Shown here piece after piece: positions 6,399 through 8,298 of a stretch of DNA of 34,711 nt; within the stretch, counting starts at the first letter, position 1, and each line of letters opens with the position of its first letter. The stretch is from a virus. Where the stretch lies: the IMG/VR virus record IMGVR_UViG_3300006805_000020, positions 1-34,711 of that record. One strand, 5' to 3'. Under the pieces are notes generated by a model, which made no database searches, was not told where the DNA came from, and worked only from the letters and a program-made list of their open reading frames with translations. Position numbers and translations under genes: made by a program.

Positions 6399-6407
6399 AT
6401 TGTATCA
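6399..6407 (-). promoter_or_regulatory. Extended -10 box 9 nt before terS ATG
   Basis: On the minus strand the sequence is TGATACAAT, an extended -10 element. It sits in the 25-bp gap between the stop of the 139-aa gene and the terS ATG, with 9 nt to the start codon, so transcription would begin 1-4 nt before the ATG. No strong -35 is visible. The same geometry is seen at 8270, 8870, 10389 and 13831. Confidence 0.5.
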
Positions 6408-6414
6408 AAAGTGG

Positions 6415-6834
6415 TTACGTTTTGACCACTGCTCCCCTGTCGAGCTGCGGACTGCACGCACACTCACCCGTTGCGTTGTTGCAGATCTTGGCCCCGGCCT
6501 TTCGCAGCTTGGCCTCCTGCTCTGCCCGCCACTGCTTATCACCCAACATTTTGAAGTTCTTGGACTCGGATGCAATGCGCATGAGCTGCTTGGCGAGTGA
6601 GTATTCCCCGCGGCACGATCCGACAGTCAGTGCTTTGCGCTCCTCCGGCGTATGGAATAACGACACCCGCGGATCCACACCACCCGGCTCGAGTTTGCTG
6701 ATGCTGGTCTTTTTGATCGTCACCCCGCGAACTGTAATAAAACCCTCGGTGGACTTGGTAAGCGATGCGCTGATCATCTTGCCCTCGCGCTCGTCCACAA
6801 ACATTTCGGATCGGTCAGTCATTTTCAAGATCAT
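6415..6834 (-). CDS. Unknown protein with C-terminal Cys cluster (139 aa)
   Basis: Not recognised. The N-terminal half looks like a small beta barrel (MFVDEREGKMISASL, FITVRGVTIKKTSI). The middle has a charged helix (EYSLAKQLMRIASES), and the C-terminus holds CNNATGECAC (three Cys), possibly metal-binding. The start at 6834 is chosen because its ATG overlaps the TGA of the replication gene (ATGA); 28 further in-frame codons upstream lie inside that gene and lack a ribosome site. Position after the initiator suggests a replication or packaging accessory, without direct proof. Confidence 0.65.
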   Translation of the reverse strand: MILKMTDRSEMFVDEREGKMISASLTKSTEGFITVRGVTIKKTSISKLEPGGVDPRVSLFHTPEERKALTVGSCRGEYSLAKQLMRIASESKNFKMLGDKQWRAEQEAKLRKAGAKICNNATGECACSPQLDRGAVVKT

Positions 6835-7634
6835 GATATTACTGTAACACCCGAGTCGGCGTGCCCTTTCCGTCGACCCCACGACAACAGGTCCGGGAGC
6901 TTTTGCTGCAGCTGGCAAAAGTCGGCGATCCTGGGCGCGTACTGATCACTGTGAGTCATGGCCACACCCCGGATGAGTTGCTGGACCTTTTCGGGTCCGT
7001 GTTTCTTGATAAGATTGGATGCTGCCGCGCGATTTGCTTTGACCCGAGACTCGATATTGTAGCCGACCTCCTCTGCCCAAAAATCAAATGCCTGGTTGAT
7101 AATGGGTGATCCATAGCGGACCGGCTTGTCCGGGTCTGCTATTACGTTAGTAATAGTCTTTGTATTGTCTACTGTATTGTCTTTATTAGATGTGCCATTT
7201 TTGTCGTTTTGATGTGCCACTTTTGACGCATCACTCGGCGTTTTTGGCACATCTGGTTGTGCCACTTTTGGCACTTCTCTTACAGGGGTTGACTTCTTAG
7301 ATGTGCCACTTTTGGCACTTCTCTTGTTGCCGTAGATCTTTTCGGCTTTGAGGACCGTGATGGATAGACCGTAAGGCGTGCGCAGCGTGAGGATGTAGCC
7401 GGCAGCGCGCAGCTTATCAACCCAGCGGCGGTACGTCCGGGTGCTGATCCCAAGCTCGAGCTCGATCTGCTCGAACGTGACCGGCTTGCCGCCCAGGACC
7501 TTACCCAGGCCGTTTTCGTTTACGGACGTCATTTTGTCCAGGAGCCACATGTATAACCAAACCGACTCACCCATCGCCTCAACATGCTTAGGCTCAAGCA
7601 GATTGTTTTTGACGTAGATACCAAAGCCTTTCAA
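6831..7634 (-). CDS. Replication initiator-like protein with N-terminal winged helix (267 aa)
   Basis: N-terminal about 100 residues form a winged helix (ALxxxVWLYMWLLDKM-type helix, then IELELGISTRTYRRWVDKLRAAGYI as helix-turn-helix and wing), as in phage O/DnaD-type initiators. A disordered Lys/Thr/Pro/Asn linker (about 105-165) is encoded by a cluster of DNA iterons at 7188-7325, the arrangement seen in lambda O. The C-terminal region (about 170-245) is helical and resembles a helicase-loader or DnaD-like tail. A GTG at 7706 would give 291 aa but spans a 12-bp inverted repeat and lacks a ribosome site; TTG at 7634 fits the start of the conserved fold better. Confidence 0.75.
   Translation of the reverse strand: MKGFGIYVKNNLLEPKHVEAMGESVWLYMWLLDKMTSVNENGLGKVLGGKPVTFEQIELELGISTRTYRRWVDKLRAAGYILTLRTPYGLSITVLKAEKIYGNKRSAKSGTSKKSTPVREVPKVAQPDVPKTPSDASKVAHQNDKNGTSNKDNTVDNTKTITNVIADPDKPVRYGSPIINQAFDFWAEEVGYNIESRVKANRAAASNLIKKHGPEKVQQLIRGVAMTHSDQYAPRIADFCQLQQKLPDLLSWGRRKGHADSGVTVIS
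7161..7325. other. Probable replication origin: iterons and AT-rich repeats inside the initiator gene
   Basis: Four direct copies of a GATGTGCCACTTTTG-type element lie at about 7188-7204, 7210-7226, 7255-7270 and 7298-7314, with one inverted copy at 7241-7254. Copies 3 and 4 extend into GGCACTTCTCTT and contain the inverted repeat GTGCCA-CTTT-TGGCAC. Immediately beside them is an AT-rich segment with TGTATTGTCT twice (7161-7170, 7173-7182), a plausible unwinding element. Iterons inside the linker of an initiator gene are the known layout of lambdoid origins; assignment here is inference. Confidence 0.65.
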
Positions 7635-7635
7635 T

Positions 7636-7670
7636 GAAAAATGCGCCTCTCTTTTGGGGGCGCATTTTTC
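7636..7670. promoter_or_regulatory. 12-bp perfect inverted repeat before the initiator gene
   Basis: GAAAAATGCGCC (7636-7647) is perfectly repeated in inverse at 7659-7670 with an 11-base loop. Because the arms end in A5/T5, it resembles a bidirectional intrinsic terminator. In the minus-strand message it lies just before the TTG start at 7634. The GAGAGG that could act as its ribosome site falls at the loop-stem edge, so it could also be an attenuator or translation switch for the initiator. Confidence 0.7.
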
Positions 7671-7840
7671 TGCTCGAACGATGTGGTATGACCTATAGCG
7701 TACCACTCGAGCGAACAGATATCAACACCCTCAACAATTACGTTAATATCAAGGGCTCTGTGGCTACCACACCGGTCGAGTCCTTAGACCACTATCATAT
7801 CAAAACGAGCCGTTTCACACCATAGCTAGATACACAGCAT

Positions 7841-7871
7841 TTATGCACAGTGTGGACAATGCTGTGGACAA
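7841..7871. promoter_or_regulatory. Cluster of three DnaA-box-like 9-mers
   Basis: TTATGCACA (7841-7849), TGTGGACAA (7851-7859) and TGTGGACAA (7863-7871) each match the DnaA box TTATCCACA or its complement with one mismatch. They sit upstream of the initiator gene in a non-coding stretch. A perfect complement, TGTGGATAA, occurs at 10408-10416. Three in 31 bp is unlikely by chance and suggests host DnaA takes part in replication or regulation. Confidence 0.55.
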
Positions 7872-7873
7872 GC

Positions 7874-7907
7874 AAAACGCCCCGGTCGGTCGAAACCTTA
7901 GGGGGCG
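7874..7907 (-). terminator. Intrinsic terminator of the predicted small RNA
   Basis: On the minus strand, CGCCCC and GGGGCG form a 6-bp GC stem with an 18-base loop, followed directly by TTTT. The loop is long for a terminator, so strength is uncertain. Confidence 0.5.
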
Positions 7908-7970
7908 CTTGCTGTCGACACTACTGACTCCATCGCTAGGGCAAACCTTGGCAACCGGCAGCGGTAGCTT
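7874..7970 (-). ncRNA. Predicted small RNA (about 97 nt) upstream of the initiator
   Basis: An extended -10 (TGCTATAAT) at 7977-7985 on the minus strand predicts a start near 7970. The transcript contains short complementary arms (TGACT/AGTCA and CGCT/AGCG) and ends in a GC hairpin CGCCCC/GGGGCG (7878-7883 with 7902-7907) followed by TTTTG. No open reading frame with a ribosome site is visible in it. It is bracketed by an intrinsic terminator upstream (7987-8006), so it would be an independent transcription unit. Function unknown; it could be an antisense or regulatory RNA for replication. Confidence 0.5.
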
Positions 7971-7976
7971 AGTCAC

Positions 7977-7985
7977 ATTATAGCA
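7977..7985 (-). promoter_or_regulatory. Consensus extended -10 promoter (small RNA)
   Basis: Minus strand reads TGCTATAAT, a perfect extended -10. It lies directly after the T-run of the terminator hairpin at 7987-8006. No convincing -35 is visible 16-18 bases upstream, where the hairpin sits. Confidence 0.6.
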
Positions 7986-7986
7986 A

Positions 7987-8006
7987 AACACCCCCGGAGG
8001 GGTGTT
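7987..8006 (-). terminator. Intrinsic terminator after the 59-aa early gene
   Basis: An 8-bp stem (AACACCCC with GGGGTGTT, plus-strand order), tetraloop CGGA, followed in the minus direction by TTTTG. It would end transcription from the promoter at 8270-8298. Together with the pseudoknot at 8011-8065 it forms the 3' end of that transcript. Confidence 0.7.
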
Positions 8007-8010
8007 GCCT

Positions 8011-8065
8011 GAACCGTCACTCTTGCCGGGCTATTGGCATGTGACTCGCCCGGATTTACCAGTTC
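8011..8065 (-). ncRNA. Predicted H-type pseudoknot with closing stem
   Basis: Three nested or crossing helices can be drawn: CCGGGC/GCCCGG (8026-8031 with 8048-8053), GTCAC/GTGAC (8016-8020 with 8041-8045, the second inside the first hairpin loop, so a pseudoknot), and an outer GAAC/GTTC (8011-8014 with 8062-8065). A terminator follows at once in the minus direction. It lies between the 59-aa gene stop and the terminator, so it is either a structured 3' UTR or a separate small RNA. No known RNA family is recognised. Confidence 0.5.
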
Positions 8066-8080
8066 AATGTGGAGTATACA

Positions 8081-8260
8081 CTAGCCGGCGTAGTGGGTGA
8101 ACTGGTACAGGGCGGCCTCACGATGCTCCAGGATCCACTTGATCCGGTAGGCGTGAAACTGACGCTTGTTGGCCAGTTTGCCATCGACGTATACCGGGAG
8201 GAACTCGCCGGGCTGGTAGGTGTAATATTTTTCTTTGATTGTTTGTGTTATTGATTTCAT
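8081..8260 (-). CDS. Early 59-aa basic protein behind a strong promoter
   Basis: A 59-codon frame starting MKSITQTIKEKYYTYQPG. It is rich in Tyr, Lys and His, with a short beta-like N-terminal half (EFLPVYVDGKLANKRQF) and a C-terminal helix (YRIKWILEHREAALYQF). I do not recognise it. It is strongly supported by a near-consensus promoter whose -10 ends 9 nt before the ATG, and by a terminator after its stop. Its position and promoter suggest an immediate-early host-takeover or regulatory protein. No Shine-Dalgarno fits in so short a leader. An antisense 61-codon frame here has no such signals. Confidence 0.75.
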   Translation of the reverse strand: MKSITQTIKEKYYTYQPGEFLPVYVDGKLANKRQFHAYRIKWILEHREAALYQFTHYAG

Positions 8261-8269
8261 AACAAGCCC

Positions 8270-8298
8270 ATTGTAGCACGAACTCGCTATTTTGTCAA
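8270..8298 (-). promoter_or_regulatory. Near-consensus sigma70 promoter of the 59-aa gene
   Basis: Minus strand: TTGACA (8298-8293), exactly 17 bases, then TACAAT (8275-8270) preceded by TG-C. This is the best promoter in the window by eye. Predicted transcription start is about 8263, giving a 2-4 nt leader before the ATG at 8260. Confidence 0.85.

Follow-up and report, generated by a model that had tools for sequence, protein, structure and literature searches.

A candidate small non-coding RNA with a possible pseudoknot before an intrinsic terminator in an uncultured phage

In transcriptional preQ1-type switches, the general layout is a pseudoknot placed right before an intrinsic terminator. 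Phage PhiKZ offers another arrangement, in which a non-coding RNA of about 100 nt comes from the 3' UTR of PHIKZ298 and consists of two stem-loops, the second one being maybe a terminator (PMC8545117). No start site was mapped after the stop codon of that gene, and the RNA is presumed to arise by processing of the message (PMC8545117). In the case of type III toxin-antitoxin systems, the antitoxins ToxI and CptI form arrays of repeats, with the gene for an endoribonuclease downstream (PMC5086642). Our search of the literature for a phage small RNA combining a pseudoknot with a terminator found no paper.

Here we describe U1, a predicted RNA in a virus record of 34,711 bases that was analysed over its whole length (the window) and bears phage genes in a GC-rich genome of 35 kb. 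The closest documented case is the PHIKZ298 3'-UTR RNA, since both are short phage RNAs directly after a coding gene, with a stem-loop body followed by an intrinsic terminator. However, the phages are unrelated, the PhiKZ RNA is presumably processed from mRNA whereas U1 has a conserved promoter -10, and two stem-loops in PhiKZ stand against a possible pseudoknot in U1. preQ1-I and other small pseudoknot riboswitches (PMC11625349) resemble U1 in having a compact H-type pseudoknot before a terminator; U1 differs in that no family match and no antiterminator were seen and no regulated gene lies directly downstream, and its loop L2 is much longer. Like the type III antitoxins (PMC5086642), U1 would be an H-type pseudoknot RNA, similarly small and next to an intrinsic terminator. 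That it is itself a ToxI-like antitoxin is nevertheless extremely improbable, because it is a single unit outside any repeat array, no ToxN/CptN/AbiQ-like gene lies downstream and the neighbouring genes gave no toxin match in Pfam or PADLOC.

Gene context and limits of the predicted RNA

The phage genes of the window include those for a large terminase, a portal-like protein, an Sf6-type small terminase and a YqaJ recombinase, and further genes encode a DnaD-like helicase loader, a CHAP endolysin and GroEL. The GroEL-like chaperonin is encoded by the phage itself (27987-29558, minus strand), and the phage relative G003 also has one (32% identity, L010 853-2340). A search of the window for tRNA and tmRNA found none. 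The elements around U1 are the following:

8298-8270, minus strand: promoter of the 59-aa gene, TTGACA-17-TACAAT with extended -10 TGCTACAAT, conserved in L002 and L003
8260-8081, minus strand: 59-aa gene, small, conserved, of no known family, stop codon TAG at 8083-8081
8073-8101, minus strand: candidate small-RNA promoter, sigma70-like, -35 TTCACC, 17-nt spacer, -10 TATACT (8078-8073)
7984-8066, minus strand: U1, predicted small RNA, about 80 nt long (83 nt), from the predicted +1 to the terminator end at about 7984/7985
7984-8006, minus strand: intrinsic terminator AACACCCC-UCCG-GGGGUGUU, hairpin 8006-7987, 8-bp stem, C(UCCG)G tetraloop

Searches of Pfam, PHROG and PADLOC with the 59-aa protein gave no match, and its AF2 model has low confidence (pLDDT 65). 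Its gene has a predicted +1 only some 3 nt ahead of the ATG, and so the message is probably leaderless. Extended -10 promoters near the ATG were seen for both the 59-aa gene (8270-8278) and the small-terminase gene (6399-6407), all on the minus strand, and since they lie so near, both mRNAs would probably be leaderless.

The second promoter, a candidate, lies at the other end of the 59-aa gene. After the TAG come the bases TG and then TATACT, which ends 8 nt past the stop codon. Its predicted +1 at 8066/8065, seven bases past the -10, coincides with the first base of the outer helix P0. Evidence against the candidate is its score, only 9/12 in the window, and the position of the -35, as TTCACC sits within the last codons of the gene. 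No substantial ORF begins near this +1. From there to the terminator, U1 folds with an MFE of -31.5 and a z of -2.0. The terminator exists on the minus strand only. It had been called strong, which holds for its 8-bp stem and less so for its tail, the U-tract being just UUUU followed by GC.

Helices, competing folds and chance expectation

The three helices reported in the first-pass annotation, P0, S1 and S2, were confirmed at 8009-8067, and their proper reading is on the minus strand, the reading strand of the flanking genes (59-aa and DnaD-like) and of the terminator. Their arms are, in the order of transcription:

8066-8062, minus strand: P0 5' arm UGAAC (span 8061-8067), pairs with 8009-8015
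8053-8048, minus strand: S1 5' arm CCGGGC, pairs with 8026-8031
8045-8041, minus strand: S2 5' arm GUCAC, pairs with 8016-8020, crossing S1
8031-8026, minus strand: S1 3' arm GCCCGG, pairs with 8048-8053
8020-8016, minus strand: S2 3' arm GUGAC, pairs with 8041-8045
8014-8010, minus strand: P0 3' arm GUUCA (span 8009-8015), pairs with 8061-8067

P0 gains the extra pairs U8061.G8015 and U8067.G8009. Inside it, a 7-nt linker J1 (GGUAAAU) leads to the first arm of S1, followed by L1 (GA, 2 nt), the first arm of S2, L2 (AUGCCAAUA, 9 nt), the second arm of S1, L3 (CAAGA, 5 nt) and the second arm of S2, which passes directly into P0. The loops are sterically acceptable on this strand, and the crossing helices, S1 of 6 bp and S2 of 5 bp, are those of an H-type pseudoknot. 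A reading on the plus strand was rejected, as the U-tract and the promoter are on the minus strand and the third loop would be too short, with just 2 nt across a 5-bp stem.

Shuffling the entire window gave an expectation of 7.7 bare pseudoknots (S1 of at least 6 bp, S2 of at least 5 bp) per strand; 5 were observed on the plus and 14 on the minus strand. Ranked with a simple energy score, the U1 pseudoknot is 79th of 319, and 84 candidates of the window are equal or better. As a bare pseudoknot, the U1 structure is no more than chance. If S1 must be all-GC and the outer stem must have 5 bp or more, the expectation falls to 0.01 per strand (200 shuffles), against one case observed, and only 0.5% of shuffles of the 62-nt body attain the same pseudoknot energy; as the all-GC S1 and the outer stem were picked as rarity criteria after the element had been seen, thus post hoc, the true significance is modest and the support weak to moderate.

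Nested folds compete with the knot. For the body, nested folding is nothing out of the ordinary (z -1.2). P0 and S1 come to -18.7 kcal/mol, and P0 with an S2 hairpin lengthened by UGCC/GGCA to -14.8 kcal/mol; the S2 arms can join this nested hairpin, GUCAC-A-UGCC...GGCA-AGA-GUGAC, at -12.1 kcal/mol. A rough estimate that penalises the pseudoknot leniently puts P0, S1 and S2 together at -20 to -22, and therefore the knot would be about as stable as the nested fold or slightly stabler. Formation of the U1 pseudoknot is possible but unproven.

A rival account takes the interval for a plain 3' UTR of the 59-aa gene with a terminator that insulates it, the -10-like sequence being inactive and the knot accidental, a by-product either of GC-rich sequence or of two alternative nested hairpins. 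Both this account and its view of the knot are tentative possibilities. The number of equal or better pseudoknots, the ordinary nested fold and the nested hairpin that accounts for S2 favour them, but P0 starts exactly at the predicted +1. Further evidence on both sides comes from the relatives.

The promoter site and the RNA body in relatives

Three IMG/VR contigs contain relatives of the 59-aa gene (78, 78 and 69% identity), and the relatives carrying it are G001, G002 (L003/L008) and L005. Differences pile up at third codon positions, of which 21/59 in G002, 26/59 in G001 and 29/59 in L005 differ from the window. The closest phage is G002, which has the DnaD-like gene (60% identity) and several further genes in common with the window. 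Phage and plasmid records contained neither similar DNA nor a similar 59-aa protein, GTDB genome contigs queried with the 59-aa alignment and GroEL gave no relatives, and the endolysin and terminase as bait for related phages gave none either; the DnaD-like gene as bait brought one additional phage, L004/G003.

DNA similarity extends from the upstream promoter through the 59-aa gene and breaks off just beyond the -10 (8073), at 8072 for G002 and 8070 for G001, while in L005 it ends at the stop codon. At the site of the candidate small-RNA promoter, G001 (L006) has TTTACG-17-TATAAT and G002 (L003) TTTACG-18-TATAAT, both better matches than TTCACC-17-TATACT of the window. L005 has neither the -10 nor the small-RNA unit. 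The position of the -10 hexamer is therefore kept in 3/4 phages (window included), and since it is kept despite a third-position divergence of 36-44% and similarity ends just past it, the comparison suggests selection on the -10. This argues against an inactive -10-like sequence in a plain 3' UTR.

Downstream of this site, the sequences are unrelated to that of U1 and are not versions of it with mutated stems, although both relatives have short structured RNAs predicted there. G002 has a long hairpin and then a clear terminator, GATAGCCC-UCCG-GGGCTATT-TTT, with an MFE z of -5.5; the CCCTCCGGGG core of the U1 terminator recurs in this L003 terminator. In the case of G001, a CCGGU-CGC-ACCGG hairpin is followed by a probable terminator, which was missed by the pattern scan although a hairpin and then TTTT are predicted. 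Neither the U1 sequence nor its pseudoknot is kept downstream in G001 and G002, a point in favour of the 3'-UTR account. In these relatives, it is the promoter position that is conserved, and the RNA body is not.

Covariation support for the crossing helix was not obtained, as no relative could be aligned over the element; records very near the window were left out of the searches, so close relatives may exist unseen. A DNA pattern for the pseudoknot had no match in viral contigs, and one for the terminator-promoter junction returned only the already known relative.

One could go further and see in the 59-aa gene, with a promoter embedded at its downstream end, a conserved carrier of a small-RNA slot with changing RNAs, which we consider rather unlikely. 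Gene and promoter would be kept, while the structured, 5'-sealed RNA and its terminator would differ from phage to phage, again an idea with a low chance of being right. A pseudoknot in the window phage and a long hairpin in G002 would be examples, fitting fast-changing host-directed or anti-defence RNAs, and this too we hold at a low probability.

Downstream units and the proposed role of U1

Past the terminator, the minus strand continues with these elements:

7985-7977, minus strand: TGCTATAAT, extended -10 for the unit that follows, directly adjoining the U-tract of the U1 terminator
7872-7970, minus strand: U2, another candidate non-coding unit, served by an extended -10 promoter and ending in its own terminator
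7634-7793, minus strand: leader of the DnaD-like gene in the window (in L008 4279-4453, minus strand; in L009 1351-1463, plus strand)
6831-7706, minus strand: DnaD-like gene as longest ORF, the start being probably a TTG near 7634

Of the extended -10 matches of the window, 3/9 are clustered on the minus strand between 8278 and 7802, which is consistent with serial short transcription units. The fold of U2 is not unusual (z -0.9), and a pseudoknot candidate at 7919-7875 was seen in which its terminator stem can pair in a knot with GUCGA/UCGAC. Between U2 and the DnaD-like gene leader, two DnaA-box-like TTGTCCACA sites lie 12 bp apart (7851-7871, minus strand) and overlap a 9+9-bp pseudoknot-like repeat set at 7866-7816; the region 7851-7871 is probably a replication origin. 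The DnaD-like gene leaders are unusually stable in three phages (MFE z -5.2, -4.6 and -6.1) and end in a terminator-like hairpin and T-run directly before the start codon, with no obvious Shine-Dalgarno sequence. This leader looks like an attenuator, and as such it is better supported by its position than U1.

For U1, attenuation would mean a cis-acting leader in which the knot decides whether polymerase gets through the terminator 8006-7987 to transcribe the downstream units as well as the DnaD-like gene. We find this improbable. The pseudoknot does lie directly before an intrinsic terminator, as in transcriptional preQ1-type switches (PMC11625349), and pairing of CCCGG in the S1 3' arm with the terminator's CCGGG is conceivable. 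However, about 370 nt without a coding gene lie downstream, the element is not conserved, and in successive truncations, computed with nested folds only, the terminator hairpin forms without serious competition. A riboswitch is unlikely because the units that follow are served by extended -10 promoters of their own, U2 also has its own terminator, and no antiterminator was seen. The ligand-sensing element suggested in the first-pass annotation finds no support either, with no gene directly after it, no competitive antiterminator in nested folds, and the knot missing from two relatives that retain the promoter. The first-pass annotation recognised no matching RNA family, which is right at curated thresholds, as the Rfam check gave no gathering-score match, riboswitches included; permissive E-values brought nothing credible.

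Because a conserved -10 follows the gene, a helix starts at the predicted +1 and a terminator lies 80 nt on, a separate small RNA is the simplest account. Among the three options originally offered for the element (3'-UTR element, small RNA or ligand sensor), this is the best supported one, although the RNA is predicted only. We thus propose, with a probability of about 0.5, that U1 is a non-coding small RNA of the phage, about 80 nt long, with its own sigma70-type promoter, a sealed 5' end and a terminator.

Transcription on the minus strand would begin at about 8066/8065 from the promoter at the end of the 59-aa gene. The 5' end would be sealed at once in P0, within which S1 and possibly S2 would fold, and the 8-bp, UNCG-capped terminator would stop the RNA near 7984. 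Sealed 5' end and terminator hairpin should together confer resistance to exonucleases and to decay that depends on the 5' end. Transcripts reading through from the 59-aa gene would contain this sequence too, as the 3' UTR of that gene, for which reason a 3'-UTR element is possible as well. The small RNA itself would most likely be trans-acting, by base pairing or protein binding via J1 and L2; predicted antisense pairing of U1 with phage start regions was no better than that of shuffled sequence.

Overall, the candidate belongs to a known kind, a phage small RNA or terminator-adjacent structured RNA, and is probably no new RNA class. If U1 is not made, three perfect short helices in 55 bases would be an example of how weak such evidence is without conservation in a GC-rich genome of 35 kb. 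If it is made, U1 would be the first small-RNA candidate among this group of uncultured phages, and a fixed promoter with a varying RNA body would, if true, be a simple means of finding more.
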